64,000 nucleotides of DNA from Streptomyces sp. NBC_01463 (GTDB taxonomy: Bacteria; Actinomycetota; Actinomycetes; Streptomycetales; Streptomycetaceae). This document shows, piece after piece, positions 3,626 to 28,973 of this stretch. The notes below the pieces were generated by a model, which was not told the origin of the DNA, made no database searches, and saw only the letters and a list, made by a program, of their open reading frames with translations. Location: positions 1,488,001 through 1,552,000 of the forward strand of contig CP109468.1 in the NCBI GenBank assembly GCA_036227345.1, given 5' to 3'. Both the position numbers and the translations under genes were made by a program. How positions within the stretch are numbered: the stretch's first letter is position 1; every line of letters starts with the position of its first letter.

Positions 3626-4957
3626 TCAGAAGTCCCATCCGTCCGCGCCCGCGTCCGCCGGCACCGTCGCGGACGCGAAGGCGTCGCCCGCCATGCCAGC
3701 GGCGAGCGTGGTGCCGTCCGCCGGGTCGATCAGGAGGAACGATCCCGTGCGCCGGGAGTCCGCGTAGGAGTCGAGCGCGAGTGGCTCGGCCGTACGGACC
3801 CTGACGCGGCCGATGTCGTTGGCGACGAGCCGGCCCGGGTGCGGGTGCTGGGAGAGGTCGTCGAGCGTGAGCCGCGACGGAATGTCCTCGACGATCGCTC
3901 TCACGGTGCGGGTGGTGTGTTTGAGCAGCACCCGCTGGCCGACGGTGAGCGGTGTGTCGGCGACATGGCACACGGTCGCGTCGATCTCCCGGGCGATCCG
4001 GGGCGGTTGAGTCCCGGCGGTGAGCATGTCGCCGCGTCCGACGTCGAGTTCGTCGGCCAGCCGGACGCTGAGGGACGAGCCCGCCGACACGGCGTCCGCC
4101 GGCCGGCCGAGGACGTCGAGCGAGGTGATGGTGGTGACGCGGCCGGAGGGCTGCACGGTCACCGTCTCCCCGACCCGGAGGCGGCCCGTGAGCAGCTGGC
4201 CCGCGTAGTACCGCTCCCCCTCGTGCCGGATGACCGTCTGGACGGGGAACCTGGAGGAGATGTCCGCCGCCCGGTCCGCCGGTTCGACCGATTCCAGGTG
4301 TTCGAGGACGGTGGGACCGCCGTACCAGTCCATGCGGGCGGAGGGTTCGACGACGTTGTCCCCGGCCAGTGCCGAGATGGGGATGGCGGTGACCTCGGGG
4401 ACGCCCAGCTCGGTGGCGTACGCCGTGAACTCCTCGGCGATGGCGGCGAAGACGGCCTCCCGGTAGCCGACGAGGTCCATCTTGTTGACGGCGAGGACGA
4501 CGTGGGGGACGCGCAGCAGGGCGGCGATGGCGGCGTGGCGGCGGGTCTGTTCGACGACGCCGTTGCGGGCGTCCACCAGGACGACCGTCAGTTCGGCCGT
4601 GGAGGCGCCGGTGACCATGTTGCGGGTGTACTGCACATGGCCCGGGGTGTCGGCGAGGATGAACCTGCGCCGGGCGGTGGCGAAGAAGCGGTAGGCCACG
4701 TCGATGGTGATGCCCTGCTCGCGCTCGGCGCGCAGTCCGTCGGTGAGCAGCGCCAGGTCGGGTGCGCCGGAGCCGCGCGAGCGGGAGGCGTGCTCGACGG
4801 CCTCCATCTGGTCGGCGAGCACCGACTTGGAGTCGTGCAGCAGACGTCCGACGAGGGTGGACTTGCCGTCGTCGACGGAGCCCGCGGTGGCGAAGCGCAG
4901 CAGGGTGGCGGCCGACGGGGCGGCCGGCTCCCGGGCGGTGGTGCTGTTTCCGCTCAT
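3626..4957 (-). CDS. cysN: Sulfate adenylyltransferase subunit 1 (CysN GTPase)
   Basis: A 443-residue GTPase subunit of ATP sulfurylase, which drives formation of adenosine 5'-phosphosulfate (APS). The G1 loop GSVDDGKST is at residues 26-34, followed by DTPGH (G3) and NKMD (G4), then EF-Tu-like beta-barrel domains. Start ATG 4957 lies 2 bp after the cysD stop; the frame is open upstream but that part has no CysN similarity. It is the last gene of the cluster. No cysH or cysI reductase follows, so this set makes activated sulfate rather than sulfide, fitting the sulfotransferase at 11.6 kb. Confidence 0.93.
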   Translation of the reverse strand: MSGNSTTAREPAAPSAATLLRFATAGSVDDGKSTLVGRLLHDSKSVLADQMEAVEHASRSRGSGAPDLALLTDGLRAEREQGITIDVAYRFFATARRRFILADTPGHVQYTRNMVTGASTAELTVVLVDARNGVVEQTRRHAAIAALLRVPHVVLAVNKMDLVGYREAVFAAIAEEFTAYATELGVPEVTAIPISALAGDNVVEPSARMDWYGGPTVLEHLESVEPADRAADISSRFPVQTVIRHEGERYYAGQLLTGRLRVGETVTVQPSGRVTTITSLDVLGRPADAVSAGSSLSVRLADELDVGRGDMLTAGTQPPRIAREIDATVCHVADTPLTVGQRVLLKHTTRTVRAIVEDIPSRLTLDDLSQHPHPGRLVANDIGRVRVRTAEPLALDSYADSRRTGSFLLIDPADGTTLAAGMAGDAFASATVPADAGADGWDF

Positions 4958-4959
4958 GT

Positions 4960-5892
4960 CTAGAAGTACCCTTCGCGTTTGCGGTCTTCCATCGCCGCTT
5001 CGGAGAGCTTGTCGTCGGCGCGGGTGGCGCCCCGTTCGGTGAGGCGGGACGCGGCGATCTCGGTGATGACGCCCTCGATGGTCGTCGCCTCGGAGTCGAC
5101 CGCGCCGGTGCACGACATGTCACCCACGGTCCGGTAGCGGACCAGCCGGGTCTCGACCGTCTCGTCGCCGGCCGGGCCGCCCCAGTCGCCCGCGGTCAGC
5201 CACATGGAGCCGCGCCGGAAGACGGGCCGCTTGTGGGCGTAGTAGATCTCGGGGAGGCCGATGTTCTCGCGGGCGATGTACTGCCACACGTCCAGTTCGG
5301 TCCAGTTGGACAGCGGGAAGACGCGTACGTGTTCGCCGGGCGCGTGCCGGCCGTTGTACAGCTGCCACAGTTCGGGGCGCTGGCGGCGCGGGTCCCACTG
5401 GGAGAACTCGTCGCGCAGCGAGAACACCCTTTCCTTGGCCCGCGCCTTCTCCTCGTCGCGCCGCCCGCCGCCGAACACCGCGTCGAACCGCTCGCTGCGG
5501 ATCCGCTCCGTCAGCGGCACCGTCTGGAGCGGGTTGCGGGTGCCGTCGGGGCGCTCGCGGAGCTTCCCGGCGTCGATGTACTCCTGCACGGAGGCGACGT
5601 GCAGGCGCAGCCCGTGTTCCGCCACGACGCGGTCGCGGTGGGCGATGACCTCGGGGAAGTTGTGCCCGGTGTCCACGTGCAGCAGCGGGAACGGCACCGC
5701 CGCCGGTGCGAACGCCTTCAGCGCCAGGTGGAGCATGACGATGGAGTCCTTGCCGCCGGAGAACAGGATCACCGGCCGTTCGAACTCGCCCTCCACCTCG
5801 CGGAGGATGTGCACCGCCTCGGACTCCAGGGCGTCCAGGTGGCTGAGGGCGGAGCAGTGGTCCGCGAACAGGTCGCCGGGGCGGGAGCTCAT
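4960..5892 (-). CDS. cysD: Sulfate adenylyltransferase subunit 2 (CysD)
   Basis: A 310-residue PP-loop ATP sulfurylase catalytic subunit. The pyrophosphate-binding motif SGGKDS is at residues 45-50, followed by HVDTGHNFPE. The C-terminal DDKLSEAAMEDRKREGYF is the standard CysD ending. It pairs with CysN to convert sulfate and ATP to APS. The ATG overlaps the cysC stop as ATGA (5889-5892), indicating translational coupling. Full family length; no anomalies. Confidence 0.95.
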   Translation of the reverse strand: MSSRPGDLFADHCSALSHLDALESEAVHILREVEGEFERPVILFSGGKDSIVMLHLALKAFAPAAVPFPLLHVDTGHNFPEVIAHRDRVVAEHGLRLHVASVQEYIDAGKLRERPDGTRNPLQTVPLTERIRSERFDAVFGGGRRDEEKARAKERVFSLRDEFSQWDPRRQRPELWQLYNGRHAPGEHVRVFPLSNWTELDVWQYIARENIGLPEIYYAHKRPVFRRGSMWLTAGDWGGPAGDETVETRLVRYRTVGDMSCTGAVDSEATTIEGVITEIAASRLTERGATRADDKLSEAAMEDRKREGYF

Positions 5893-6464
5893 ATCAGCCG
5901 CCTCTCCGCCAGCAGGCCCAGCAGCGCCGACGCGGATTCGGTGACGGACTGTTCGTGCGCGTCGATGCGCAGGTCGGGCTTGTCCGGTGCTTCGTAGGGG
6001 TCGTCGACGCCGGTCAGTCCGGTGAGCTCGCCGGCGGCCTGCCTGGCGTACAGTCCCTTCACGTCGCGCTGGGCGCAGGTGTCCGAGGGCGTGGCGACGT
6101 GGATCTCCAAGTAGGGCGTGTGCGAGGCGTCATGACGTTCCCTCACGGCCTGCCGGCTGTCCGCGTAGGGGGCGATGGCCGGGACGAGCACCAGTACGCC
6201 GTTGCGGGCGAGCACCTCCGCGACCAGTCCGATGCGCTGGACGTTCGTGTGCCGGTCGGCGCGGCCGAAGCCGAGGCCCGCGGAGAGGGTCCGGCGGAAT
6301 TCGTCGCCGTCGAGCACCTCCACCCTGCGCCCCTCGTCGCGCAGCCGGTCGGCCACGGCGTGGGCGATCGTCGTCTTTCCCGAGCTCGGCAGGCCCGTCA
6401 GCCATACCGTCCCACCGCACGCGCAGTCGCGCGTGGTCAGGCTGGTTCGCAGCTCCGTTTTCAC
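5889..6464 (-). CDS. cysC: Adenylylsulfate kinase (CysC)
   Basis: A 191-residue APS kinase that phosphorylates APS to PAPS, the sulfate donor of sulfotransferases. The P-loop GLPSSGKT is at residues 24-31, then DGDEFRRTLSAGLGF and the FGRADRHTNVQR segment. The GTG at 6464 is chosen because similarity begins there; the open frame runs far upstream without recognisable sequence. A 125-bp gap separates it from the condensation-domain gene, so a local promoter is possible. With cysD and cysN it forms a dedicated PAPS supply. Confidence 0.93.
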   Translation of the reverse strand: MKTELRTSLTTRDCACGGTVWLTGLPSSGKTTIAHAVADRLRDEGRRVEVLDGDEFRRTLSAGLGFGRADRHTNVQRIGLVAEVLARNGVLVLVPAIAPYADSRQAVRERHDASHTPYLEIHVATPSDTCAQRDVKGLYARQAAGELTGLTGVDDPYEAPDKPDLRIDAHEQSVTESASALLGLLAERRLI

Positions 6465-6589: not shown

Positions 6590-7891
6590 TCATGCCAGCG
6601 CGGCCAGCCGGTCGAACAGCTCGCGCACCGGCACGCCGGGGTCGTCGGCGGCCGTCGTCAGCGCGGTCAGCCACTGCCGCAGCATGAGCGCCGCCTCGTC
6701 CTCGGTGAAGTAGTCCGTGGCGTAGTCGGCCCGTACGTCCCAGCCGCTGCCGTCCGCGACGACGTACTGGAGCCAGTCGAACTTCGCCGACGCTCCCCCC
6801 ACGTGCACCCGCTCGCACCGCAGCCCCGGCAGGTCCAGCCGGCTCGGTGACTGGTCGAGGACGAGGCAGATGCGGCCCAGGTGCTCGCCGGAGAGCACGC
6901 CCCGCTTGCGGGTGACGCCGCCGCCGATCCGGGCGTAGGGCACGTTGCGGTGCCGCAGCACGTCCAACGACCGGCGTTTCGCCGCGGTGCACACCTCGCC
7001 GAACGTGGCGGTGGCGGGGACCAGGTACCGCACCGGCAGGAGATCGGTCAGACAGCCGAAGACGGTGTCGAGATCAGGTTCGCCGCGGCGGGACACGGGG
7101 CTCCCGATCACCACGTCCGCACCGTTCACCGCGGCCGCGGTCACCGCCATGCAGGTGCTCATCAGCACGTGCGGTGTGGTGCGCAGCGCGCGTGCCGCCG
7201 TGCGTACGGCGTCACCCAGCGCGGCGGGGACGGTGGCGCGCACGCACTCACAGGCGGAGCCACGCCGGGCGGCGAGCGGGCGGGGCCGGGGCGGCAGGTG
7301 GGTGAGCACGGGCGCCCCGTCCAGGAACGCGGCCCAGAACGCGAGGTCGTCCGGCGCGATCCCGGCCGCCCGGGCCCGGACCGCGTGTTCGCCGAGCGAC
7401 AGCCCCGGCGGTGCAAGTCCGGCCGGACCGCCCCCGGCCTCCTCGGCGTACAGGGCCGACAGTTCCTGGTCGAGCAGCACCAGGGAGGCGTCGTCGACGG
7501 CGACATGGTGGATCTGGAGCAGCAGCACGTACTCGTCCGGCGCCAGGTCGTACAGGGTCAGCCGGGCCGGTGACACGGTCAGGTCCAGCGGTCGCTGCCC
7601 GGCCCGCCGCAAGGTCTCGTGCAGTTCGCCGCCGGGCCACGGGAGGCGTTCCAGGGGGACCGCACCGGCCGGGTCGACGCACTGCACCGCGCCCTGCTCG
7701 CCGAGCGTGAACCCGGTGCGGAACACCGCGTGCCGTTCGACCAGCGAGGCCAGGGCCCGTTCCAGCGCGGGGACGTCGAGCGGCCCCACGATGTACTGGG
7801 CCCAGGTCTCCAGGAACGGGGAGGGGTCCCCCATGAACTGGTCGGCGATCCAGAGCGCCTCTTGCTCGAAGGTCTGCGGGTACTCACGCAT
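6590..7891 (-). CDS. Stand-alone NRPS condensation domain
   Basis: A 433-residue free-standing condensation (C) domain. The active-site motif reads HHVAVDD at residues 128-134, i.e. HHxxxD with Asp instead of the usual Gly last. C-terminal motifs are recognisable (IGSPVSRRGEPDLDTVFGCLTDLLPVRY). It should form a peptide bond, or transfer an acyl group, between carrier-bound partners, probably the free PCP at 9.4 kb and another carrier or the released azabicyclic amino acid. Its ATG overlaps the stop of the adenylation gene (TGATG). Confidence 0.85.
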   Translation of the reverse strand: MREYPQTFEQEALWIADQFMGDPSPFLETWAQYIVGPLDVPALERALASLVERHAVFRTGFTLGEQGAVQCVDPAGAVPLERLPWPGGELHETLRRAGQRPLDLTVSPARLTLYDLAPDEYVLLLQIHHVAVDDASLVLLDQELSALYAEEAGGGPAGLAPPGLSLGEHAVRARAAGIAPDDLAFWAAFLDGAPVLTHLPPRPRPLAARRGSACECVRATVPAALGDAVRTAARALRTTPHVLMSTCMAVTAAAVNGADVVIGSPVSRRGEPDLDTVFGCLTDLLPVRYLVPATATFGEVCTAAKRRSLDVLRHRNVPYARIGGGVTRKRGVLSGEHLGRICLVLDQSPSRLDLPGLRCERVHVGGASAKFDWLQYVVADGSGWDVRADYATDYFTEDEAALMLRQWLTALTTAADDPGVPVRELFDRLAALA

Positions 7892-9417
7892 CAGGCGGTG
7901 CGCCTCTCCAGAGCCTGCAGGTCGACCTTGCCGTTGTCGCGCAGCGGCAGCTCGTCCACCTGCTCGAACCTGCCGGGGACGGCGTACGCGGGAAGTCTCG
8001 TGGTGAGTTCCTTGCGTATGTCCCGGGGAGCCGGTCCGGCGCCGTCGACCAGGGTGTAGACGAGCAGGATGTGCGCGACGGTCCCGCCGGGGTCGGTGCG
8101 GGCGACGGCGGCGCAGGTCCGGATCTCCGGGATCGCCGACGCGGCCGCCTCGACGTCACCGAGTTCGATCCGGTTCCCGCTGAGCTTGATCTGCCGGTCG
8201 CGACGGCCGTAGTAGTGCAGAATCCCGTCGTCGTCGACCATGCCGATGTCGCCGGTCCGCAGGACGCGGCGCTTCTCGCCCGCTATCTCCAGGACCGGGA
8301 ACCGCTCGCGCGTCTGTGTCTCGTTGTTCAGGTATCCCAGGGCCACGCCGGGGCCGGCCGCGACGATCTCGCCGCGTTCGCCGCGGGGTGCGGGTGATCC
8401 GTCCTCCCGCAGCAGCAGCACCGTGGTGTGGGGTACGGGCACGCCCACCGGGATGCCGGCGGGCGCCGCGCTGTCGGCCGGGCCCATCCGGTGCACGGTC
8501 GTCAGCATGCAGTTCTCGGCCGGGCCGAACCCGTTCCAGAGCGGCAGCCCGGGAAAGCGCTCCAGGAACAGCGCCACATGCCGCGGGGACTGCTTCTCGC
8601 CCCCGACGTACAGCGTCCCCAGTCCCTCGAACGCGCCCAGGTCCTCGTCGACGATCAGGTTGAACAGCGAGGTCGTCAGCCACACCGTGTCGACGCCCTG
8701 GCCGGCGACGAGGGTGCGTAACCGGCTGGGCATCAGGTGGTTCTCGTCGACCACGACGCAGGCGCCGCCGGTGGTGAGCTGGCCCCACAGCTCGAAGGCG
8801 TACATGTCCCAGGCCCCGGGCGCGACCTGAGCCGTGATGTGCCCCGGCCCGAATCCGTCCAGTCCGCCCGGGCCGAACATCCGGGTGACCGCGCGGTGAG
8901 GGATGAGCACCCCCTTGGGGACACCGGTGCTGCCGGAGGTGAAGAACACCATGGCCGGATCGTCCAGCGCGGTCCGCACCGGTTCGAAGAGCGCGGGTCC
9001 CGCGCTGTCCGCGATCCCGGACAGCGGCACGGCGTCGAGCGTGCGGGTGACACCGGGCGGCTCGCCGCCGGACAGGCCCACGACGACCGGGTCGTCGAGC
9101 TGGGCGAGGATGGACGCGATACGGCCGGCCGGCCAGCGCGGGTCGAGGGTGGCGTACGCCGCGCCGCTCATCAGGACGCCGAGCTGGAGGGCTATCAGGT
9201 GGACGCCGCGCGGGACCAGCAGCGGGACGATGTCTCCCGGCCGCACACCCCAGGCGGCGAGACGGCCGGCCACCACCCTCGCCGCCGTGGTGAGTGTCCG
9301 GTAGTCGACGCGTTCCTCGCCCTGGACCAGGGCGAGGTCGTGGGGTGCCTGCTCGGCGTACGCGGCCACCGCGGCGTGCACGGTGCGCAGCGGCGGCAGC
9401 TGCTGCGGCCCGGTCAC
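7891..9417 (-). CDS. Stand-alone NRPS adenylation enzyme, possibly valine-activating
   Basis: A 508-residue adenylation domain: A3 TSGSTGVPKG near 160, A4 WDMYAFE near 203, A5 NGFGPAE, A7 RTGD, A8 GRRDRQIKLSGNRIE and A10 DNGKVD. By manual alignment to GrsA, the pocket reads roughly D-M-F-W-Y-G-G-M-L-K, closest to published Val codes such as DAFWIGGTFK; this is a by-eye estimate. GTG 9417 overlaps the stop of the PCP gene (GTGA), so it is coupled to, and probably loads, that carrier. Confidence 0.85.
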   Translation of the reverse strand: MTGPQQLPPLRTVHAAVAAYAEQAPHDLALVQGEERVDYRTLTTAARVVAGRLAAWGVRPGDIVPLLVPRGVHLIALQLGVLMSGAAYATLDPRWPAGRIASILAQLDDPVVVGLSGGEPPGVTRTLDAVPLSGIADSAGPALFEPVRTALDDPAMVFFTSGSTGVPKGVLIPHRAVTRMFGPGGLDGFGPGHITAQVAPGAWDMYAFELWGQLTTGGACVVVDENHLMPSRLRTLVAGQGVDTVWLTTSLFNLIVDEDLGAFEGLGTLYVGGEKQSPRHVALFLERFPGLPLWNGFGPAENCMLTTVHRMGPADSAAPAGIPVGVPVPHTTVLLLREDGSPAPRGERGEIVAAGPGVALGYLNNETQTRERFPVLEIAGEKRRVLRTGDIGMVDDDGILHYYGRRDRQIKLSGNRIELGDVEAAASAIPEIRTCAAVARTDPGGTVAHILLVYTLVDGAGPAPRDIRKELTTRLPAYAVPGRFEQVDELPLRDNGKVDLQALERRTA

Positions 9418-9689
9418 GCCGCACCGAGCCGGATCTGCTCGGCGAAGTCGGCCAGCTCGTCGTGTTCGAGCAGCCAGGCCGGGTCGACACGCAGTCCGAG
9501 ACGGCGCTCGATGCGGGCGCAGATGCGGATGGCCGCCAGGGACGTGCCGCCGAAGTCGTAGAAGCTGTCGCGCCGGCCCACCAGGTCGACGTCCAGCACC
9601 TCGGCGATGACGGCGGCGACCTGCTCCTCCAGTTCGTCGGCCGGCTGCTCGTACGCGGCCTTGCACACGACATCGCGGTTCTCGGTCAC
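9414..9689 (-). CDS. Free-standing peptidyl carrier protein
   Basis: A 91-residue carrier protein with the phosphopantetheine site DFGGTSLAA; the Ser is the attachment residue and Thr replaces the common His before it. GTG 9689 is preceded by a good ribosome site (AGGAG). It is coupled to the adenylation gene by a GTGA overlap and is the expected partner of the free A and C proteins. The same GGTS variant occurs in the carrier of the large NRPS, suggesting common ancestry. Confidence 0.88.
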   Translation of the reverse strand: MTENRDVVCKAAYEQPADELEEQVAAVIAEVLDVDLVGRRDSFYDFGGTSLAAIRICARIERRLGLRVDPAWLLEHDELADFAEQIRLGAA

Positions 9690-9780: not shown

Positions 9781-10137
9781 CTACCGGCCGGCCAGGATGC
9801 AGAACTCGTTGCCCTCCGGATCGGCCATGACCACCCAGCCGTCCGACGAGCGGAAGTCGGTGACGACACTCGCGCCCAGCGCGAGCGCGCGTGCCACCTC
9901 CGCGTCCTGGGCATCGCCCTCGGGGCGCATGCAGAAGTGCATGCGGTTCTTCACCTGCTTGCCGTCGGGCACGAGGATGAAGAGGACCGTGTACCCGTGC
10001 TCGGTGACGACGTAGCACTCGTCGGACCCCGGCCGCACCCCCTCCTTCGGGGTGAACTCCGCCATCTCGCACCACCATTGGGCCTGGGCGTACGGGTCAC
10101 GTGAGTCAACGGTCGTGTGGGACAGGGTCAGGCTCAT
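9781..10137 (-). CDS. VOC/glyoxalase-fold protein, probable drug-binding resistance protein
   Basis: A 118-residue single-copy VOC (glyoxalase/bleomycin-resistance) protein. It opens with LTLSHTTVDSRDP and ends with WVVMADPEGNEFCIL, the typical family ending. Start ATG 10137 is where similarity begins. Proteins of this fold sequester antibiotics, e.g. bleomycin-binding proteins and the mitomycin-binding MRD. Next to an exporter in a cluster predicted to make an alkylating aziridine, self-resistance by binding is the best guess; an enzymatic role cannot be excluded. Confidence 0.72.
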   Translation of the reverse strand: MSLTLSHTTVDSRDPYAQAQWWCEMAEFTPKEGVRPGSDECYVVTEHGYTVLFILVPDGKQVKNRMHFCMRPEGDAQDAEVARALALGASVVTDFRSSDGWVVMADPEGNEFCILAGR

Positions 10138-10172: not shown

Positions 10173-11429
10173 TCAGGAGATCTGTTCGGCGGTCGTGGTC
10201 GTGGGCTCGGCATCGCGCTCGGCCTCCCGCAGGGCCCGGGTCGACACCCGTGAGGCGAACACGAACGCGGCGAGGGTCAGTCCGATGCCGCACACGACGA
10301 AGGTGGACTCCGGGCCCAGCCAGCGGCCCAGCCCGCCGCCGAGCACCGCGCCGACCGGCACGGCGCCGAGCACGATCAGGCGGTATCCGGCGGTGGCCCG
10401 GCCGAGCAGTTCGTCGGGGACCGCGGCCTGGCGGAGCGTGCTGACCACGATCTGGTTCAGGGCCGTGGCGATGGCCGCGAAGAACATGATGACCTCGGAC
10501 AGGATGATGCTGCCGCTGAGGCCGAGGACGACGAAGCTGGCGGCGGGCACGAGCGCGGCGAGCCAGGTGACCGGGCCGCCGCCGATGACCGGGACGACCC
10601 TCGCCGCGATCAGCGAACCGATGACGGCGCCCACGGCCGGCACCGCGATGAAGATGCCGTACCAGGATTCGGAGACGCCCAGGGGACCCGTCGCCAGCAG
10701 GACGAGCAGACCACCGGTCGCCGAGGAGAACAGGTTGATCGAGCCGGAGATGAACGCCACCCGTCGCAGCAGCCGGTGGTTCCAGAAGTAGGACCAGCCC
10801 TCCCGGATGCTGCGGACGACCTCTCCTGGCGTGTGCTTGGAACCGCTGGTGTCACTCGCGGTGGGCAGCATCCGCGGCAGGGTGAGCGCGGCCAGGGCGC
10901 CGAGGGCGAAGAGCCCCGCGGTGGAGGAGAAGACCATGATCGCCGACATGGCGAACAGGGCGGCGCCCGCCGTCGGCCCGATGAAGTTGTTGATGGCCGA
11001 CTGGGTCGCGAACAGGCGGCCGTTGGCCCGCTCCAGGTCGCTGCGTTTGACCAGCCGCGGCGGCACCGTCAGCGCCGCGTTGTCCACCAGTGTCTCGGCC
11101 GTTCCCGCGAGGAACACGGCCAGGTACAGGATGAGGATGCTGCGCAGATCGGCCACGAGCGTCAGGACGAGCAGACCGAAACCGACGGCGCGGATCGCGT
11201 TTCCCCACACCATGATGAGACGCCGGTCGATGCGGTCGGCGAGCGCCCCGGCCGGCAGGGTGAAGATCAGCCACGGCAGGAACTGCGCCACCGTCATGCC
11301 CGAGACCAGCAGCGGGTCCCGGGTCATCGTCACGGCGAGAAGAGGCACAGCCGCCAGCACCAGGCCGTCGGCCAGGTTGGACAGCCCCTGAGACCACCAC
11401 AGTTTGGTGAAACTACGGCCCAACGTCAT
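10173..11429 (-). CDS. MFS exporter (EntS/MFS_3-like)
   Basis: A 418-residue major facilitator with about 12 membrane segments; LPAGALADRIDRRLIMVWGN carries the conserved loop 2-3 motif. Start ATG 11429 has GAGGAG six bases upstream; an ATG at 11462 would add eleven residues. The subfamily includes siderophore and antibiotic exporters. Its place inside the cluster beside the VOC protein suggests product export and self-protection. Confidence 0.85.
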   Translation of the reverse strand: MTLGRSFTKLWWSQGLSNLADGLVLAAVPLLAVTMTRDPLLVSGMTVAQFLPWLIFTLPAGALADRIDRRLIMVWGNAIRAVGFGLLVLTLVADLRSILILYLAVFLAGTAETLVDNAALTVPPRLVKRSDLERANGRLFATQSAINNFIGPTAGAALFAMSAIMVFSSTAGLFALGALAALTLPRMLPTASDTSGSKHTPGEVVRSIREGWSYFWNHRLLRRVAFISGSINLFSSATGGLLVLLATGPLGVSESWYGIFIAVPAVGAVIGSLIAARVVPVIGGGPVTWLAALVPAASFVVLGLSGSIILSEVIMFFAAIATALNQIVVSTLRQAAVPDELLGRATAGYRLIVLGAVPVGAVLGGGLGRWLGPESTFVVCGIGLTLAAFVFASRVSTRALREAERDAEPTTTTAEQIS

Positions 11430-11642: not shown

Positions 11643-12371
11643 CTAGGCGCCGCCTCCGCCCAGGGTCGCCGTGATCCGTTCGTAGTAAGGCAGTTGATCC
11701 TGCTCGAAGGCGAGAGCGGTCTGCTCCAGGTTCTCCGGGAACTGCTTCCTCCCGGCCGGGGCGACGCCGAGGGCGTTCGACTCGCTGGCACCGGCGTGCC
11801 AGCGTTCCGTCGTCTTCCAGCTCGCCGGCGGCTCCTTCTTGAAGTCGAGCGCCTCGGCGAGGAAGTCGATCCCCATGGCAGTGCAGTAGCGCCGCATCTC
11901 CGCCTCGGCGTCACCGGCCACCCGGTCGCCGTCGACGAGGTGCATCGGATGCCCGGCGGACGTCACCGTGGAGACGATGTCCCACAGGTGCCCGAACCCC
12001 ATGGCCGGTGACGTGGCGTCGGACTGCATGACGAGGTGCGAGCGCACGGTGTCGCGGGGGTTGCGGACCATCGCGGCGTGGCGGCACCGCCGCAGGAAGT
12101 CCGGGCTCGCGCCGAGCCGGTCGAGGCGGAAGTCGGTCGTGTCCTTGAAGAAGACCGGCCGGTCCGCCGCCGTTTCGGCCAGCGCTGCCATCACCTGCTC
12201 CTGGCTCGTGCACGTACGGCCCGCGACTTCCGCCTCACCGAAGTCGCACACCCGTGAGAACGGTTCGTGGACGACGAGGAAGTCACCGCGCTCGTACATC
12301 GCACGCTCGAAGGCGGTCGACCGCGAGCGCGGAACACACCACAGCGCCAGAAGACTCGGCTGATCCGTCAT
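11643..12371 (-). CDS. PAPS-dependent sulfotransferase
   Basis: A 242-residue sulfotransferase-family protein. The 5'-phosphosulfate loop is WCVPRSRSTAFE at about residues 11-22, and the 3'-phosphate-binding region is VRNPRDTVRSHL. The donor PAPS would come from the clustered CysN, CysD and CysC. The likely acceptor is a hydroxyl of the carrier-bound diamino-dihydroxyheptanoate, making sulfate a leaving group for aziridine closure (inferred). Its ATG overlaps the stop of the LysK-like gene (ATGA), tying it to the carrier-protein genes. Confidence 0.82.
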   Translation of the reverse strand: MTDQPSLLALWCVPRSRSTAFERAMYERGDFLVVHEPFSRVCDFGEAEVAGRTCTSQEQVMAALAETAADRPVFFKDTTDFRLDRLGASPDFLRRCRHAAMVRNPRDTVRSHLVMQSDATSPAMGFGHLWDIVSTVTSAGHPMHLVDGDRVAGDAEAEMRRYCTAMGIDFLAEALDFKKEPPASWKTTERWHAGASESNALGVAPAGRKQFPENLEQTALAFEQDQLPYYERITATLGGGGA

Positions 12372-14277: not shown

Positions 14278-14279
14278 GG

Positions 14280-19416: not shown

Positions 19417-20489
19417 CGGGGGTCCGCCCCTTCACCCGCGAGGACGAGCCGCCAGTCGGCGGCCAGTTGTTCGTAGGCGAGCACCAGCTCGGCGCCGCGA
19501 CGCGGGATCAGCTCGGTGATGCCGTCCGTCCGTGCCGCGTGGGCGCTGAGCAGCCGCACGTTGGACCACGCCGACACGACCCGGTCCGCGGACGCGGCCA
19601 CTTCGAGGAGGGGGGACTGCCGTGTCCGGTGCGCGCGTTCCTGAGCGAACCGGCCGTGCAGGAAGGCCTGCGCCTGCATCGTCCAGCCGAACGTGTAGGC
19701 GCTGCGGAGTGCCTCCGGATCGCCGCAGCTGTCCTGCAGGCGCTCCACGAAGCGGCGCAGTCCGGCCCGGCCGGTCCACACCCGGTCCGAGGGGCCGGCC
19801 GTACCGTTGGTCCAGCGGTCGAGGTTGCCCCGGACCGCCTGCGCGGTCGGGACGGTGCCGGATCCGTCCGGTTGCGGGCGCACCTTCGTCGTCAGGACGC
19901 GGCCGCCGATCTCCCGGCTGGAGAAGAACACGTCCTGGGTGTCCGACGGATTGCCGGACGTCCAGCTGTTCACTAAGTGCTCCGCGGACAACCATCCCTG
20001 GAATCCGGGTGGTTGCGCGTCGGAGACGTAGAACTCCACGTCGCCCGCGGGCGTCCGGCGCCAGCCCGGCACCACGACGAGGTGCGCGGCGTGCACGTCG
20101 TGGAAGGCGGGACGGAAGGGCAGGTGGTAGTTGTCCACCGCCACGATGACGCCGGAGTGCGTCTCGATCAGGCGGATCAGGTCGTCCGCGTCCGATCCCG
20201 TCGTCCAGGCGGACTCCACGTCGTGGTACGGGCAGAGGTCGGCCGCCACTCCGCGGCTGCTCTGCGCGGGACGGTAGAACTCCTCGCACATGACATCGCC
20301 GGGCGCGAACGCGAACTCGCAGGCCGCGCCGAGCACGTCGACCGGCTCCAGCCCGTGTTCCATCAGGACGCTGCCCAGCGTGGTGTGCAGGCAGCTCAAC
20401 GGGTCCTCGTACCACTGCGGGTAGGTACCGGTGACGCCGTCCCACCGGGCCGGGCGCGCTGTCGCTTCGGTCGTAGTGCCTGCGTTCAC
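19413..20489 (-). CDS. BtrH-like protein, candidate large subunit of the aziridine-forming enzyme
   Basis: A 358-residue protein resembling the BtrH N-terminal papain-like fold. DPLSCLHTTLGSVLMEHG carries C33, and AVDNYHLPFRPAFHDVHAAHLVVVPGW supplies conserved His/Asp positions; the C-terminal half is helical. BtrH-type proteins act on acyl groups held on carrier proteins. Its position between the DADH genes and a small beta-rich partner matches what I recall of AziU3/AziU2, which eliminate sulfate to close the azinomycin aziridine; this is inferred. It contains a rare TTA codon (19974-19976). Confidence 0.65.
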   Translation of the reverse strand: MNAGTTTEATARPARWDGVTGTYPQWYEDPLSCLHTTLGSVLMEHGLEPVDVLGAACEFAFAPGDVMCEEFYRPAQSSRGVAADLCPYHDVESAWTTGSDADDLIRLIETHSGVIVAVDNYHLPFRPAFHDVHAAHLVVVPGWRRTPAGDVEFYVSDAQPPGFQGWLSAEHLVNSWTSGNPSDTQDVFFSSREIGGRVLTTKVRPQPDGSGTVPTAQAVRGNLDRWTNGTAGPSDRVWTGRAGLRRFVERLQDSCGDPEALRSAYTFGWTMQAQAFLHGRFAQERAHRTRQSPLLEVAASADRVVSAWSNVRLLSAHAARTDGITELIPRRGAELVLAYEQLAADWRLVLAGEGADPR

Positions 20490-21082
20490 GGCCGGCTCCC
20501 CCGTATCTGCGGATCACTTGCGGAGTCGACGCCCGCCTGCCGGCCGACGAGCGTCATGGCGAAGAGGTGCACGGCCGGATTCCTGGGCAGCGACATGGCG
20601 CCGAGCGGTTTTCGCGACGTGACCGGGACGCGCTGGCACCAGAGGGTGATCCCGATGCGTTCCTGCACGTGGTGCGGGTAGTGGATGACGTCGGTGCGCA
20701 GCGCGAGATCCTCACCGAAGTCCGAGCGGCCCTCCCACAGGTCGGAGAGCGCCAACTGGTCCCGGTCCACCGTGCCGTTGGAGAAGTGCCAGGTGACGAC
20801 GTCCCTGACCCGGCGTTCGCCGCATCCGATGACGTAGAGCCAGTCCCACCGCCGCTCCGGGACCTCGATCCGCTGGCCGGAGCACACGACGTTGTCCGGT
20901 CCGCGGCCGTCGAGCGGGGCGCTGCGCAGCGGGACGTCGTCCACGACGATGTCCAGGGGCGCGGGCTGGGCCGGGAGCGAGTTGCGCCAGACGTTCAGCC
21001 GGCCTTCGGTGAGGTTCTCCGGTGTGGTCGCCGCCTGGTTGTTCAGAAAGGGGTCGAGCGCGAGTATCTGGTGAACGGTCAA
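20486..21082 (-). CDS. Small beta-rich protein, candidate AziU2-like partner
   Basis: A 198-residue protein with no firmly recognised family. Segments such as DNVVCSGQRIEVPERRWDWL followed by VIGCGERR look like a beta-sandwich similar to carbohydrate-binding jelly rolls. The start is probably the TTG at 21082 that overlaps the GNAT stop (TTGA), and its stop overlaps the BtrH-like start (ATGA 20486-20489). That tight coupling suggests a two-protein complex, possibly the sulfate-eliminating aziridine enzyme. No catalytic motif can be named. Confidence 0.6.
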   Translation of the reverse strand: MTVHQILALDPFLNNQAATTPENLTEGRLNVWRNSLPAQPAPLDIVVDDVPLRSAPLDGRGPDNVVCSGQRIEVPERRWDWLYVIGCGERRVRDVVTWHFSNGTVDRDQLALSDLWEGRSDFGEDLALRTDVIHYPHHVQERIGITLWCQRVPVTSRKPLGAMSLPRNPAVHLFAMTLVGRQAGVDSASDPQIRGSRP

Positions 21083-21651
21083 CGCAGTTCCTTCCGTACG
21101 AGCGCTCTGCGCTGCAGGCGGGGCTCGACGACGGTGAATCCGCAGGACTCGAAGGTGCTGACCCTGCCGTGGAAGCTGCCGCGTTCGAACTCGGGCTTCC
21201 GGTCGTCCTCGGGGTACGCCTCGATGAGTTCGGCCTTCTCGTCCCGGGCCCACTCCACCGCCCGGTCGATGAGCACCCTGGCCAGTCCCTGGTGCCGGTG
21301 CTCGCGGGCCAGGTAGAGACAGACGATGGACCAGATCCGCTCCGGGTCCTCGCCCTTGAAGAGCTTCGCCGCACGGGACGTGCGCAGCCTCGGGAAGGCC
21401 GGCCGGGGGCCGGCTCCGATCCAGCCGACGGGCACGCCGTCGACCGAGCCGATGACGCCCACCCGTTCACCGGACTCGACCAGGTCGCGCAGCTTCTCCT
21501 CGCGTGCCGCGGATCCGCAGGAGGAGCGTTCCTTGGCGGTCATGCGGAAGTAGGTGCACCAGCAGTTCTCCACGAGACCTTTCGGCCGGAAGAACGTGCC
21601 GACCTCGGGCCAGTCATTCGGTCCGACCACTTTGGTTTCGAAATCGCTCAT
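21079..21651 (-). CDS. GNAT-family N-acetyltransferase
   Basis: A 190-residue GNAT protein with the acetyl-CoA motif CLYLAREHRHQGLARVLIDRAVEW at about residues 110-133. ATG 21651 follows GGAAGG at a proper distance; an ATG at 21675 lacks one. It sits at the head of the coupled pair with the beta-rich and BtrH-like genes. It may acetylate an amino group of the product or an intermediate, as tailoring or self-resistance. Which one cannot be told. Confidence 0.8.
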   Translation of the reverse strand: MSDFETKVVGPNDWPEVGTFFRPKGLVENCWCTYFRMTAKERSSCGSAAREEKLRDLVESGERVGVIGSVDGVPVGWIGAGPRPAFPRLRTSRAAKLFKGEDPERIWSIVCLYLAREHRHQGLARVLIDRAVEWARDEKAELIEAYPEDDRKPEFERGSFHGRVSTFESCGFTVVEPRLQRRALVRKELR

Positions 21652-23033: not shown

Positions 23034-25706
23034 TTATCCGTCCGTCACCGTGCCTTCGCGGTCGAGCAGGCCGATGTTCTCCGCGCATTTCATGTAGAAA
23101 CGCGAGGCGACCGACCATTCGGTGATGCCCTGGGCACCCAGCACCTGCATCGCGCCGCGGACGACGCGCACCATGGCGTCCTGTTCCACGAGCTCGAACC
23201 GCCGCACGGCAGCCTCGTCCACGTCCGCCACGTTGTCCGCGAGTTCCCGGAGCCGCACACTCAGGGCGTTCAGCTCGGCGTAGCCGCGGATCAGCGGGAA
23301 CATCAGCGCGTCGAGCTCCACCAGCTGCCGGCCGAACTGCTCGCGGGCACATGCGTGTTCCCACGCACAACGGAACAGCCCGATGCCGAGTCCCAGCACG
23401 TAGGCCGCGTGACGCAGCCGGCACGCGGGTTCCCCGCAGCCGTGGGAGGTGTCGCCGGATTCCGGCGGGCGGCACGGCCGGTAGGCGTTCTCGTAGCCGA
23501 GGTAGCCCGTGCTCAGGCTGATCGCGCAGCCGAGCGTGAGGCCGAGACCGAGACCGCCCTCGTCCTCGGGGCGCTCGATCCCGTCGAAGCCGAGGTCGGA
23601 CAGGGTCTTCGCCAGGGCCGCGCGCCGGGCCGGTGAATCGGCGAACAGGGGCTCCACCCTGACGCCGGCGCCGACGGGCTCCAGGACCTCCAGGACGGTG
23701 TCGGCCACCTCGCCGCCGAAGCGGTTCAGGATCCCCAGACAGCGCCCGGAGAACTCCTCCTTGAGATCCGCCGAGATGGTGGACAGCATCATCTCCGAGG
23801 TACCGGCGGACAGGGTGAGGCCGGGCGACTCCGTCAGCGCCGAGAACAGCTCCTCGTGGACCAGCTCATCGGTGCCGGATGCCCTGCCGAGCGAGCTCCA
23901 GCGGCGCAGCACCTCGTGCCCGACCTGCTGGCACGTCTCGCTCGTGTACAGCTTGGCGACGGCGGTGTCGATCGCCCTGACGTCGTCCCGCAGGAAGACC
24001 TCGGTCGCCGAGCGGGCCAGGGTGGTGGCGCATTCGACCTGCCCTTCGAGCCGTTCGAGGTCCCGGGGCAGTCCGGTCGCCCCGCGCAGGGCGTTCAGCC
24101 ACCGGGCCGCCCTGACGACGTGGTCGATGCCGGTGCGTTCGATGGCCAGGGCCCCGTCCAGCAGGGCCCATCCGCGGCCCTCTTCGCCCACCCGGCGCCA
24201 GCTCTCGGCCTCGACGTCCTGGAGGCGTACCCGGCACATCCGTTCGCGCTGCACCGTCTCGACGAGCTCGACGCTCACGCCGTCGGCCGCCAGGTCGATG
24301 ACGAAGAGCGTGATGCCGTCGTACTTGTTCCCGCCCTGTCCGGTGCGCGCGGCCACCAGGGCGGAGCCCGCGAGGTCACTGTAGATGCTGAACACCTTGA
24401 CGCCGTTGAGGACGTAGCGGTCGCCGCGCCGCTCGGCCCTGGTGCGGAGCGCGGCGAGGTCGCTGCCGGCGCGCGGCTCGCTGTAGAGGACGGTGGAGAA
24501 CTCCTCGCCCCTGCTGATGCGCGGGAGCAGTTCGCGCTTCAGCCGGTCCGAACCGGACTTGAGGACGAAGTTGCCGACGATCTGCACGGTGAGCGCGTGG
24601 ACGAGGTCCGGCAGTCCGGTCGCGCAGAAGCCCTCGAACAGCTCGATGGCAACGCGCGTCGGCATGCCCCCGCCGCCGGACTCCCGGGGCCAGTCGGGCG
24701 TGAGCAGTCCGCGCCGGCCGAGCTCACGGTAGGCCTCGGAGATGGCTTCCGGGTCCATCCGCCTGGCGCGGATCACGAGATCACGCCAGCGCGGGGTGTC
24801 CACGAGTTTCGCCAATGACGCGTGTAGATCTGACGCGTCGAACTCCCGTTCCTCGGCGCGCCGTTCCGGCTCGCCCGGGGCGGTGACGGGTCGCTCGTCC
24901 CTGATGATCTGCTCGATCACGGCGACGTTGTCGGCGTCGCCGAGCAGGCTGTAGTGGTCACCGGGCAGATCGTGGAGGCGGACGTCGCCCGTGGTCGCCG
25001 TGTGCCAGTCGGAGATGAGGGACTCCACGGCCCGTACGGAGACGACGTCGAGGTCCCCCGGTGTGGGCCGCCACCGGCCGACCAGCCGCCGGTTGTGCGC
25101 GAAGATCTCCAGCCGTTCGGCGAACGTCTCCGGGTCCATGTCGAGCACCGCGGCGGCTTCGTCGCTCGTGTCCGCCGTGACCTCGTCGTCGCGCCCGCTG
25201 AGCCTCAACGCGTCGTGCAGGAAGCCCTGCACCGCTTCGGCGGGCGTCCACTCCGGGACCTTCCCGGTCGCCCAGGTGGAGTCGAGGAGCACCACCTTCG
25301 GGCGGTTCCCGCGTGCCGCGAGCAGGCAGGCGATCTCCCAGGTGAGTGCGCCGCCGAAGGACCAGCCGCAGACCACGTCGACCTCGGGGCAGTCCTCGCC
25401 CAGGCTCTCGACATAGCGCCGGGCAAGCTCCTGCACCGACTCGGCGGGCCCGCCGTCGGCGAGCGTCCGCGACGACGCCTCGATGCCGAAGCACCGGTGG
25501 TCGCCGAGTCTGCGGACCAGGGGCTGGTAGGCCAGCAGGCTGCCGCCCACCGGGTGGGCGAACAGGAGCACCCGGCCGGAGGCCGCCGAGCGGCTCAGTT
25601 CGATGAGAGAGGATGATTCCGCCGTCGCCGACCTCGTACGGAGATAGGCGTTCAGGCGCTCGCCTTCACGTTGCATCACACGTTCCCTGCTGCCGTCGCG
25701 ATCCAT
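23034..25706 (-). CDS. Thioesterase - acyl-CoA dehydrogenase - partial acyl-CoA dehydrogenase fusion
   Basis: An 890-residue three-part protein. Residues 42-272 are an NRPS-type thioesterase with GWSFGG (S116), D142 and H251. Residues 300-650 are a complete acyl-CoA dehydrogenase with YSEPRAGSDLAAL, YVLNGVKVF and TLSAGTSEMM. Residues 655-880 look like a second copy with the helical N- and C-domains but no beta-barrel; a short Cys-containing linker (about 745-763) replaces it. The protein may desaturate a carrier-bound aminoacyl chain and release or edit products. It starts 12 bp after the NRPS stop; a Met at 25676 is another possible start. Confidence 0.85.
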   Translation of the reverse strand: MDRDGSRERVMQREGERLNAYLRTRSATAESSSLIELSRSAASGRVLLFAHPVGGSLLAYQPLVRRLGDHRCFGIEASSRTLADGGPAESVQELARRYVESLGEDCPEVDVVCGWSFGGALTWEIACLLAARGNRPKVVLLDSTWATGKVPEWTPAEAVQGFLHDALRLSGRDDEVTADTSDEAAAVLDMDPETFAERLEIFAHNRRLVGRWRPTPGDLDVVSVRAVESLISDWHTATTGDVRLHDLPGDHYSLLGDADNVAVIEQIIRDERPVTAPGEPERRAEEREFDASDLHASLAKLVDTPRWRDLVIRARRMDPEAISEAYRELGRRGLLTPDWPRESGGGGMPTRVAIELFEGFCATGLPDLVHALTVQIVGNFVLKSGSDRLKRELLPRISRGEEFSTVLYSEPRAGSDLAALRTRAERRGDRYVLNGVKVFSIYSDLAGSALVAARTGQGGNKYDGITLFVIDLAADGVSVELVETVQRERMCRVRLQDVEAESWRRVGEEGRGWALLDGALAIERTGIDHVVRAARWLNALRGATGLPRDLERLEGQVECATTLARSATEVFLRDDVRAIDTAVAKLYTSETCQQVGHEVLRRWSSLGRASGTDELVHEELFSALTESPGLTLSAGTSEMMLSTISADLKEEFSGRCLGILNRFGGEVADTVLEVLEPVGAGVRVEPLFADSPARRAALAKTLSDLGFDGIERPEDEGGLGLGLTLGCAISLSTGYLGYENAYRPCRPPESGDTSHGCGEPACRLRHAAYVLGLGIGLFRCAWEHACAREQFGRQLVELDALMFPLIRGYAELNALSVRLRELADNVADVDEAAVRRFELVEQDAMVRVVRGAMQVLGAQGITEWSVASRFYMKCAENIGLLDREGTVTDG

Positions 25707-25718
25707 GTCCTGGGGTAC

Positions 25719-28700
25719 TCACTCGGACAGCAGCCGGGTGACGTCCTCTTCTGTCATCTGATCGATGGCCTGCTGGAGTTCATCGGGGGACAGACTGGCC
25801 AGCCTGGAGCGTTCGACCTCCAGGGCCAGGCTCTGCACGCTGGAGTCCGCGAAGAACGCCGCCAGCGAGATGTCGGTCGCGAAGATCTTCTTGATCTTGG
25901 ACACCAGCTGGGCGGCCTGGAGGCTCGTACCGCCCAGGTCGAAGAAGCTGACGTTCTTCGCGAAGTCGGTCCTGCCGAGGATCGCGCCGAAGGCCTGGGT
26001 CATCATCTTGCGTTCGACATCGGTGAGCCGGTCCGTCGGCTCCGGCTCCGCGGCGGCTCCGACCCCCGGCAGCGCGCGTTCGTCGATCTTGCCGCTCCCG
26101 TTGATGGGGAGTTCGTCCAGCAGGACGAACCTGCTGGGCACCATCGTGGACACCAGGTGCCTGCGGCAGTGGTCACGCAGCGCCGATTCGGAGACGTCGG
26201 GCGCTCCGCCGGTCGCGCAGTAGGCGACCACACGTTTGTGGTCCTCGTCCTGCTGGACCTGCACGAACACGTTGCGCACTCCGCGGGCGGCGCGGATGGC
26301 ACTCTCGATCTCACCGATCTCGATGCGCACACCGTTGATCTTGACCTGTTTGTCGGCCCGTCCGACGTACACCAGCCGGCCGTCACCGTTGTGCCGTGCC
26401 AGGTCGCCGGTCAGGTAGAGCCGCGCCGACGGGTCGTCGCCCACCGGGTCGGGGATGAAACGCTGCCGGTTGTCCTCGTCACGGTTCCAGTACCCCGCGG
26501 CGAGCCCGACCCCGCCGATGGCCAGCTGCCCGATGACGCCCTGGGGCACGGGCCGGTTCTGTGCGTCCAGCACGTACGCCACGTGGTTGTCCATCGGTCC
26601 GCCCATGGGCAGGGCGGCGGGCGACAGCGGTTCCTTCAGCTCTTCGACGATGCTGGTGACGGTGCACTCGGTGACGCCGTATCCGTTGAAGATGCGGCGG
26701 CCCTTGCCCCAGGCCCGTACGAGTTCGTGCGAGAAGGCCTCGCCGCCGACGAACACGATGCGCAGGTCACTGAGCGGGGCGGGATCGAGCAGCTTCATGA
26801 CCGACGGCGGCAGGTCGGTCACCGTGACGCGGTGCTCCTCCAGGAACCGCTGGACGCCCGCCATGTCGAGGCGTGTCGCGGACGGTACGAAGTGGAGCGA
26901 CGCACCCGTCAGCAGGGCGCCGAACATCTCGAAGACCGACACGTCGAACCCGCACGAGGCATAGCCGAGGAAACGATCCTCCGGAGTGAGCTCGAAGAGT
27001 GTGCGTACGTTGCGGATGAACCCCAGGATGTTGTCGTGGGTGATGAGCACACCCTTGGGTGTGCCGGTGCTTCCCGAGGTGTGCATCAGATAGGCGACGG
27101 CGTCCTTGCCGGGGCTCTCCGCGGGCGCGGGCGCCGCGTCCGGGAGGTCCGGGGGCAGCCGGAACTCCAGCGCGGGGGCGACACCGGCCGTCGTCGCGTC
27201 GCAGACCACGCTCCGCAGCCCGGCGTTGCCGACGATCGACTCGATGCGGCCCGGCGGGTTCATCGCGTCGATCGGGACGTACGCGGCGCCCAGGGCCATC
27301 AGTGCCAGCACGGTCGCGGGGAAGTCGGGGGACGGTTCGAGCGCGACGCCCACCCGGTCGCCGGCACCGATGCCGAGCGAGGCGAAGTGGGCACGGAGCG
27401 CCTCCGCCCGGCGCCGCAGGGCACCGTAGGTCAACGTCGCGTCGGGGGTGCTCACGGCCGGGCGCTCGGCGTGCTCGTCCGCGACGGCACAGAAATGCGT
27501 GAAGACGTTTCCGGTGGGCGACGGCGCCACGCGGCCCTTTCCGACAACCGCCTGCACCGCACGGGATTCCTCGTCATGGGCCCACGACTGTTTGATACTG
27601 ATATCCGGCAGGGAAACGGCCCTGCGCAGTATTCCGACGAATACGCGCTGCATGGTGGCGATCGTCGCCGCGTCGAAGATATCGGTGTTGTACGCGGTAT
27701 GGATCTCCAGATCCGCACCGTGCTGCGTGACCGTCCAGGACTGGAAGAACTTCGCGTGCGTGGTGTCGGGCTCGTTCTCGGTCGCGGTAAGTCCGTCGAG
27801 CCTGAGCGGTTCGGCCCACTCGTTCATCGTCAGCGTGTACTGGAACAAGGTGGAGCGCGATGACTCACGTTTGACGCCGGCTCCCGCTATGACCTCTTCG
27901 AGCGGGAGCTGCCCGTGGGACTGTGCCTCACGGAAGCGCCGCTGTACGTCCGACAGGCATTCCCGGAACGTCGCGTTGGGGTCGATCCGGCAGCGTAATG
28001 GCAGCATGTTGATGAAGAAGCCGATGGTTCTCTCACATTCGGCTTCGGTACGGTTGGCCGTCGGCATTCCGAAGATGACGTCCTCGGATCCGGAGTATCT
28101 GTTGTAGAGGCATTCCATCGCCGTCGCATAGACGGTGATCGGCGTGGTCGACAGGGACGAGGCGAGATCGTTCACCTGCGCCGCCAGACCCTGCCAGGTG
28201 TCCACCTCCGCGGAGCCGGCGTACGTTGTCTCGGGCGGGAGAGGCCGGTCACCTGGTATGTCCATGACATCTACGCCTCGGAGTGCGCCCGCCCAGTAGT
28301 CCACGCTCTCCTGCCAGGCCCCCGCGCTCATGCGCTTGCGCTGCCACACGCTGAAGTCGGCGAACTGAACGGTCGGGGGCTCGATCTTGGGCTGGGCGCC
28401 GATCCGCCGCGCGTTGTACTCCCGCTCGAGTTCCTCGAAGAAGATCGACGTCGACACACCGTCGAAGATGATGTGGTGCACAAGGAAGCCGAAGTAGTGG
28501 AGGCCGGGACCGACGGTGACCAGAGTGGCCCGCCACAGCGGAAACTCCGTCAGGTCGAGCGCGGTCGCGGCGAGTTCGTCCATGAGCCGGCCGGCTTCGC
28601 TCTCGGATTCCGCGGTCGTCCTCTCGATGACGATCTCGGGGGAATCCACGATGCCCTGGAAGTACTCGTCGTTCTCCACGAGCACATAGGTCCGCAGCGC

Positions 28701-28973
28701 CTCGTGGCGCATGACGATACTGGTGAGTGCCCCGGTGAGGGCCTCGACATCGAGATCACCCTCCAGCCGGAACAGGAATGCGACGTTATAGGTCGACATC
28801 CCGGTCCGTAACCGGTCGACGAACCACAGGGTATTCTGCGAATGCGAGAGCGGAATATTGTTCCGGTCCTGGCGCGGCCGGGGTCCTTCAGTGATCTTGG
28901 CACGTGCACGTGCCAGCATGCCCGCAAGCGACTGCTTCTTATCCATCGCGGTTTCGTCGTGCACTGAACTCAC
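25719..28973 (-). CDS. NRPS module (C-A-PCP)
   Basis: A 1084-residue single module. The C domain spans about 40-480, with HHIIFDG near 167-173. The A domain spans about 500-985: HTSGSTGTPKG, FDVSVFE, NGYGVTE, YLTGD, NGSGKID. The PCP spans about 1000-1075, with DLGGTSLQA. A by-eye pocket reading is D-V-F-D-F-G-G-V-T-K; Asp at the 278 position suits a substrate with a positive charge. GTG 28973 is chosen for its GGGAG ribosome site. It is the first gene of the cluster, lacks a terminal TE, and holds a TTA codon at 27996-27998. Confidence 0.92.
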   Translation of the reverse strand: MSSVHDETAMDKKQSLAGMLARARAKITEGPRPRQDRNNIPLSHSQNTLWFVDRLRTGMSTYNVAFLFRLEGDLDVEALTGALTSIVMRHEALRTYVLVENDEYFQGIVDSPEIVIERTTAESESEAGRLMDELAATALDLTEFPLWRATLVTVGPGLHYFGFLVHHIIFDGVSTSIFFEELEREYNARRIGAQPKIEPPTVQFADFSVWQRKRMSAGAWQESVDYWAGALRGVDVMDIPGDRPLPPETTYAGSAEVDTWQGLAAQVNDLASSLSTTPITVYATAMECLYNRYSGSEDVIFGMPTANRTEAECERTIGFFINMLPLRCRIDPNATFRECLSDVQRRFREAQSHGQLPLEEVIAGAGVKRESSRSTLFQYTLTMNEWAEPLRLDGLTATENEPDTTHAKFFQSWTVTQHGADLEIHTAYNTDIFDAATIATMQRVFVGILRRAVSLPDISIKQSWAHDEESRAVQAVVGKGRVAPSPTGNVFTHFCAVADEHAERPAVSTPDATLTYGALRRRAEALRAHFASLGIGAGDRVGVALEPSPDFPATVLALMALGAAYVPIDAMNPPGRIESIVGNAGLRSVVCDATTAGVAPALEFRLPPDLPDAAPAPAESPGKDAVAYLMHTSGSTGTPKGVLITHDNILGFIRNVRTLFELTPEDRFLGYASCGFDVSVFEMFGALLTGASLHFVPSATRLDMAGVQRFLEEHRVTVTDLPPSVMKLLDPAPLSDLRIVFVGGEAFSHELVRAWGKGRRIFNGYGVTECTVTSIVEELKEPLSPAALPMGGPMDNHVAYVLDAQNRPVPQGVIGQLAIGGVGLAAGYWNRDEDNRQRFIPDPVGDDPSARLYLTGDLARHNGDGRLVYVGRADKQVKINGVRIEIGEIESAIRAARGVRNVFVQVQQDEDHKRVVAYCATGGAPDVSESALRDHCRRHLVSTMVPSRFVLLDELPINGSGKIDERALPGVGAAAEPEPTDRLTDVERKMMTQAFGAILGRTDFAKNVSFFDLGGTSLQAAQLVSKIKKIFATDISLAAFFADSSVQSLALEVERSRLASLSPDELQQAIDQMTEEDVTRLLSE

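Follow-up and report, generated by a model that had tools for sequence, protein, structure and literature searches.

Within a window of 64,000 nucleotides from Streptomyces sp. NBC_01463 (the whole stretch analyzed, C1:1488001-1552000 in a two-contig genome of 9.07 Mb; window GC content, 71.6%), the genes at positions 3626-28973 are, judging from their homology, quite likely to make a short peptide with a 1-azabicyclo[3.1.0]hexane amino acid that is oxidised and probably acetylated. The cluster consists of 23 intact genes, all on the minus strand, in an operon-like run from 28973 down to 3626, and 11 of the 22 gene junctions overlap by 1-8 nt, which confirms the single-strand arrangement with many stop/start overlaps described in an earlier reading of the letters (hereafter the sequence-only reading). 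Pfam was run on 19 of the 23 proteins, the other four being the MFS, CysC, CysD and CysN proteins. It identified a nonribosomal peptide synthetase (NRPS) with condensation (C), adenylation (A) and peptidyl carrier protein (PCP) domains, a fusion of thioesterase (TE) and acyl-CoA dehydrogenase (ACAD), P450, GNAT, BtrH_N, DegT, VOC and M20 proteins, two transketolase halves, LysW, LysX, LysY and LysZ, and discrete PCP, A and C proteins. None of these 19 proteins has a polyketide synthase domain; azinomycin requires the polyketide synthase AziB for its naphthoate according to the available part of the published account (PMC9570651).

The amino-group carrier protein LysW (55 aa; 16164-16331) matches Zn_ribbon_LysW with an E value of 7e-15, ends in EEDWGE and is the single LysW found in the whole genome. 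Adjacent to it are the genes for a LysX-like ATP-grasp ligase (15287-16147), a LysY-like semialdehyde dehydrogenase (14280-15290), a LysZ-like kinase of the AA_kinase family (13453-14283) and a LysK-like M20 peptidase (12368-13456), for which the top NCBIfam match is [LysW]-lysine hydrolase, under the family cut-off. The same cluster contains a split transketolase (N half, 17273-18118, with a probable ATG start at 18118; C half, 16351-17280) and a DegT/DnrJ/EryC1/StrS aminotransferase (18151-19416). Vazabitide A (carrier protein Vzb22) and s56-p1, which can be likened to the window by description only, share a LysW-type carrier and 2,6-diamino-5,7-dihydroxyheptanoic acid (DADH), as far as the available text of the source goes (PMC9303977).

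The genes that had been read as a BtrH-like and beta-rich pair are, on sequence similarity, relatives of the solved aziridine synthase AziU3/AziU2. The AziU2/Azi28-like gene (U2; 20486-21082, TTG start) and the AziU3/Azi29-like, BtrH_N-containing gene (U3; 19413-20489) lie side by side with a 4-nt overlap, and their products match the AziU2 and AziU3 PDB chains with E values of 1e-38 and 1.5e-53, respectively. A scan of genome contigs using 21 U3 relatives gave 74 loci (L012-L085); about 10 kb on each side of U3 was covered, and the absence of an A domain, CysC/D/N, ligase or P450 from these loci refers to that stretch. U2 immediately precedes U3 on the 5' side in 73 of the 74, the remaining locus being a cut contig, and all 11 core genes were matched within the stretch covered in 37. 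L061 and L062 have 11/11 and 10/11 genes of the aziridine core, and no A domain was found within 10 kb on either side.

The sulfotransferase (11643-12371), which has the sulfotransferase fold, shows 29 invariant columns among 30 aligned members and a PR[S/C]RST region. In the published aziridine chemistry, as given in the available part of the source, sulfation is followed by displacement of the sulfate, and a figure legend describes AziU3/U2 as binding an O7-sulfated substrate. Because U2 and U3 are relatives of AziU2 and AziU3, the sulfotransferase and the genes for CysC (adenylyl-sulfate kinase, 5889-6464), CysD (sulfate adenylyltransferase subunit, 4960-5892) and a CysN-type GTP-binding subunit (3626-4957) appear to be core aziridine genes and not odd tailoring genes. 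The products of the last three are 89%, 93% and 92% identical to the annotated CysC, the CysD and the GTP-binding protein, respectively, of a sister cluster, L009. One could suppose instead that these enzymes sulfate the finished product and are dispensable for the aziridine, since genes for 3'-phosphoadenosine 5'-phosphosulfate (PAPS) are a common sulfation kit and CysC/D/N-type genes are also found on other plasmids whose displayed stretch has no annotated LysW. However, a sulfotransferase relative accompanies U3 in 58 of the 74 loci and adjoins U2/U3 in many, in the locus of Streptomyces ficellus the sulfotransferase gene is, of the genes matched, the nearest one on the 5' side of U2, and the substrate bound by AziU3/U2 is itself sulfated according to that legend, so that we regard this alternative as highly improbable. 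The sequence-only reading had taken the sulfotransferase, CysC/D/N, the BtrH/beta pair and the ACAD for unusual tailoring functions; this view did not hold, as they fit the published aziridine chemistry and recur in the S. ficellus locus. On L010 and L011, which are other Streptomyces plasmids, genes for CysC/CysD and a GTP-binding protein are followed by annotated aliphatic-sulfonate ABC transporter genes.

Homology likewise indicates that what had been called an ACAD fusion is a thioesterase joined to both halves of a Fic32-33-like dehydrogenase (PDB 8HK0) in one 880-aa polypeptide (23034-25676), in which ACAD-beta (residues ~279-640, with Glu513 in AIERTG) is followed by a shortened ACAD-alpha (~641-880). 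The VIA-align list for the fusion mostly covers residues 279-643. By their names, RedW, PigA, AnaB and ColB1 are aminoacyl-carrier-protein dehydrogenases, whose ACAD fold acts on carrier-bound amino acids, as is predicted for the fusion; they are listed as separate proteins, whereas the window has two ACAD halves and the TE in a single chain. Together with the LysW set and the AziU3/U2 relatives, the Fic32-33-like ACAD supports the original idea of a LysW-carrier cluster for a peptide of the 1-azabicyclo[3.1.0]hexane type. Azinomycin has an alpha,beta-dehydro azabicycle residue, and ACAD chemistry suits either outcome, so the aziridine amino acid might stay open, or the ACAD might yield an azinomycin-like dehydroamino acid instead of a saturated bicycle; but Fic32-33 and its relatives come from the ficellomycin producer, whose residue is a saturated bicycle, and we consider such an outcome unlikely.

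The codes of the A domains were read at nine specificity positions, the tenth (Lys) being outside the reading. The C-A-PCP module (25719-28973; GTG start at 28973) has the code DVFDFGGVT. An A domain starting with DVFDFGG is present in 41 of the 74 aziridine loci (36 with full DVFDFGGVT, four ending in VA or V-gap, and one cut off); in 17 loci all A domains have other codes, and 16 have none. Outside the window type, A domains of 43-49% identity still show the full code. The control set comprised 30 A domains from ten genomes, picked among the best matches and not a random draw. The code is present in 12 of them (those of the window, seven genome sisters, Micromonospora wenchangensis and the S. 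ficellus locus, plus two others with 46-47% identity) and in none of the remaining 18, which have 35-39% identity (0/18). The 54 kb examined of the S. ficellus locus yielded a single A domain, which carries DVFDFGGVT, and a member of the L-amino acid ligase family is encoded nearby. Ficellomycin is valine joined to an azabicycle residue. Thus, this A domain most likely serves the aziridine/azabicycle residue and the ligase serves valine, and the DVFDFGGVT domain of the window probably loads the aziridine/azabicycle amino acid. L019, L020, L077, L080 and L085 each have two DVFDFGGV-type A domains in neighbouring NRPS frames, a hint of two-azabicycle products.

All nine window-type modules have an intact C motif HHxxxDG (HHIIFDG in the window), and so does L049, whereas 17 of 18 ficellomycin-clade modules (L049 left out) have lost it, including that of S. 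ficellus (HRLVCDG); L035 retains it. The pattern is consistent with a window-type assembly line that forms the peptide bond itself and a ficellomycin pathway that leaves this to a separate ligase. The S. ficellus L-amino acid ligase had no match in the window, L009, L012-L018 and L128-L134 at E 1e-6. Elsewhere, close matches were found in L052 (69%) and L055 (74%), and weaker ones (24-34%) in seven other loci; since within the DNA covered a close ligase is found in S. ficellus, L052 and L055 only, the pairing of the lost motif with the ligase is uncertain for the clade as a whole.

The S. ficellus genome is listed in the same genus as the window genome, and from the organism and its gene content we infer that the locus (G210, L125-L127) is the ficellomycin cluster, Fic32-33 being PDB 8HK0. 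It shares 16 functions with the window at 33-79% identity, namely LysW/X/Y/Z, M20, the split transketolase, DegT, U2/U3, the sulfotransferase, CysC/D/N, C-A-PCP with the identical code, the TE and the ACADs. In S. ficellus, however, the TE is at the NRPS end and the two ACADs are separate genes. Furthermore, the 54 kb showed no match (E 1e-3) to the P450, GNAT, MFS, VOC, discrete PCP or discrete C protein of the window, the discrete A protein matched the NRPS alone, and the MFS gene present is unlike that of the window. The azinomycin-type loci (L046, L050, L051, L054, L059, L063 and L067; AziU3/AziU2, Azi28/Azi29) have in common with the window the U2/U3 pair, LysX, the sulfotransferase, an ACAD and a P450 near U3, but differ in a separate U3 clade and, in 5 of the 7, in the A code DFWSVGMVH.

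Eight further loci, L012-L018 and L009, are of the window type, and all eight share the gene order from the NRPS to the PCP: NRPS, TE-ACAD-ACAD, P450, GNAT, U2, U3, DegT, the transketolase N and C halves, LysW-X-Y-Z, M20, sulfotransferase, MFS and PCP. The discrete A and C genes come after the PCP gene in 8/8 sisters, and CysC, CysD and CysN in 7/8; L128 stops after CysC, and L133 has CysC/D/N reordered at 44-64% identity. The genes from NRPS to PCP are 68-96% identical within the window type, whereas elsewhere U3 reaches at most 44% and any core gene at most 60%. Of 231 U3 relatives in the protein database, the best 120 comprise 30 with 65-100% identity and 90 with at most 46%. In the U3 tree (77 rows), the nine window-type rows form a clade with 100/100 support and the longest inner branch (1.35), apart from the S. 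ficellus clade (22 rows, 100/99) and the L051 clade (7 rows, 100/100), which is azinomycin-type as the L051 U3 matches AziU3 at 4e-169. We also surveyed 392 sampled genomes of the genus, scoring five candidates per genome for U3 and two for the TE-ACAD fusion: a U3 relative was found in 33 (28 of these at E below 1e-58), and the fusion (E <= 1e-100) in the window's own genome only. The hosts of window-type loci belong to Streptacidiphilus, Kitasatospora, Streptomyces and Amycolatopsis, and L009 sits on a linear plasmid (Streptomyces sp. NBC_00525) whereas the window copy is chromosomal; the family is conserved and probably mobile. Streptomyces roseicoloratus TRM44457 (L018 and L027) and Streptomyces sp. 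NRRL F-6131 (L014 and L043) each have a window-type locus plus a second, divergent aziridine locus in one genome.

By these sequence comparisons, which cover the azinomycin and ficellomycin clusters, the cluster is a distinct gene-cluster family separate from both, with the P450, GNAT, MFS, discrete PCP/A/C and the gene break between PCP and TE as its own set. The earlier suggestion of a new type therefore stands in this sense, even though the genes on which its unusual character was thought to rest belong to the core. The literature searched gave no account of the window-type family, and the product would likely be a compound not yet described. The contrary possibility is that the product is an azabicycle compound described before, for which vazabitide A or a close analogue would be the most plausible candidate; this view draws on the same DADH/aziridine core but seems very unlikely. 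Azinomycin and ficellomycin are excluded as products by the separate U3 clade and the unmatched S. ficellus ligase. Streptomyces sp. SANK 60404, which we take to be the vazabitide producer, has an entry in the taxonomy but is not named among the TE-ACAD relatives (85), the best 120 of 231 U3 relatives or 120 of 335 proteins in a further listing, although many of these are nameless and the coverage of that strain is uncertain.

The P450 (21702-22928; heme motif FGLGVHRCIG) is a predicted ring hydroxylase, and the GNAT acetyltransferase (21079-21651) is predicted to act in tailoring or self-protection. In M. wenchangensis (L049, L167), the NRPS, TE-ACAD, P450, GNAT and MFS are 68-71% identical to those of the window, whereas the core is ficellomycin-type, its U3 being 81% identical to that of S. 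ficellus and 41% to that of the window. No discrete PCP, A or C protein of the window type was found there in the 36 kb examined, and no relative of the A protein above 38% in the genome. This chimera implies that the P450 and GNAT travel with the azabicycle module, so that action on the azabicycle residue is favoured; the apparent movement of NRPS-TE/ACAD-P450-GNAT-MFS as one block points to ring oxidation and acetylation. The M. wenchangensis locus also has further NRPS A domains with the codes DVWFHGVVA and DAWWLGGTF. A P450 gene is located no more than 10 kb from U3 in 8/8 window-type and 7/7 azinomycin-type loci, 0/20 ficellomycin-type loci and 11/39 of the remaining loci. The azinomycin bicycle bears hydroxy and acetoxy groups, and the ficellomycin bicycle is without them. 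The P450 distribution matches this pattern of oxidation, yet with a cross-type P450 identity of about 30% it is suggestive only.

Alternatively, the P450 may be a beta-hydroxylase of the residue bound to the discrete PCP, with the GNAT serving as a self-resistance acetyltransferase and the azabicycle left undecorated. A discrete A protein, a PCP and a P450 are a known arrangement for beta-hydroxylating a PCP-bound amino acid; the GNAT gene adjoins that for the MFS in L167; and the own genome (G000) has seven genes for AlkZ-like DNA glycosylases that pass the Pfam cut-off, all of them outside the window, so that other protection would be expected. Against this, the Micromonospora chimera keeps the P450 and GNAT with NRPS-TE/ACAD while lacking the discrete proteins in the stretch examined, and we consider this alternative rather unlikely.

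The proposed pathway is built from homology at each step. LysX would attach glutamate to the C-terminal Glu of LysW, and LysZ and LysY would reduce the bound glutamate to the semialdehyde, to which the split transketolase would add two carbons before amination by DegT and release of DADH by the M20 peptidase. CysD, CysN and CysC would provide PAPS, with which the sulfotransferase would sulfate O7, and U2/U3 would displace the sulfate to close the aziridine. The DVFDFGGVT A domain may then load the aziridine amino acid onto its PCP, where the ACAD pair, with Glu513 as the base, would desaturate C-alpha/C-beta and the aziridine nitrogen would add to C-beta, giving the bicycle for decoration by the P450 and GNAT. 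The discrete A protein (7891-9417; code DMFWYGGML in the window and 8/8 sister clusters) and discrete PCP (9414-9689) would supply a residue that is valine-like, as the code presumably resembles valine codes; the C domains, including the discrete condensation protein (6590-7891; motif HHVAVDD), would join the residues, the fused TE would release the product and the MFS exporter (10173-11429) would export it. More tentatively, and with somewhat less than even confidence, we propose that the bicycle is finished on the assembly line by the dedicated A domain and the one-chain TE with its two-part dehydrogenase, that the co-inherited P450 and GNAT turn it into an azinomycin-like hydroxy/acetoxy warhead, and that the discrete NRPS couples this to the valine-like residue; the result would be a peptide that alkylates DNA and has neither naphthoate nor guanidine.

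Several observations weigh against this picture. The P450s of azinomycin-type loci are only about 29-32% like that of the window, and no GNAT relative was found in the stretch covered of these loci. The loci with A domains but never DVFDFGGVT include 5 of the 7 azinomycin-type ones. The valine-like reading of DMFWYGGML is tentative, and the ligase argument is thin, as in the DNA covered a close ligase occurs beyond S. ficellus in two loci. Furthermore, the middle domain of 8HK0 chain C has no counterpart in the ACAD-alpha half, which makes FAD binding by the fusion putative, and the block values of the predicted local distance difference test are 56-72 over residues 651-730 and 45-54 over 731-750.

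The VOC (Glyoxalase_6) protein (9781-10137) is an optional member of the cluster. TTA codons occur in the genes for the NRPS (two), U3, LysZ (as the last sense codon) and the discrete A protein, which is compatible with bldA-dependent control. A divergent gene for a sigma-70-family factor (29509-30405) adjoins the cluster, with no match in related loci at E 1e-8.

Aziridines are rare among natural products, and several such compounds alkylate DNA. If our interpretation is correct, the loci described here would constitute a conserved, probably mobile aziridine-peptide family whose listed hosts are candidate producers for metabolite studies, and DVFDFGGVT would be a sequence code for recognising A domains for azabicycle building blocks. 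The natural chimera would show how the synthesis of the warhead and its decoration can be swapped as modules. Furthermore, the question of what closes the second ring of the 1-azabicyclo[3.1.0]hexane, and where this happens, would become testable.
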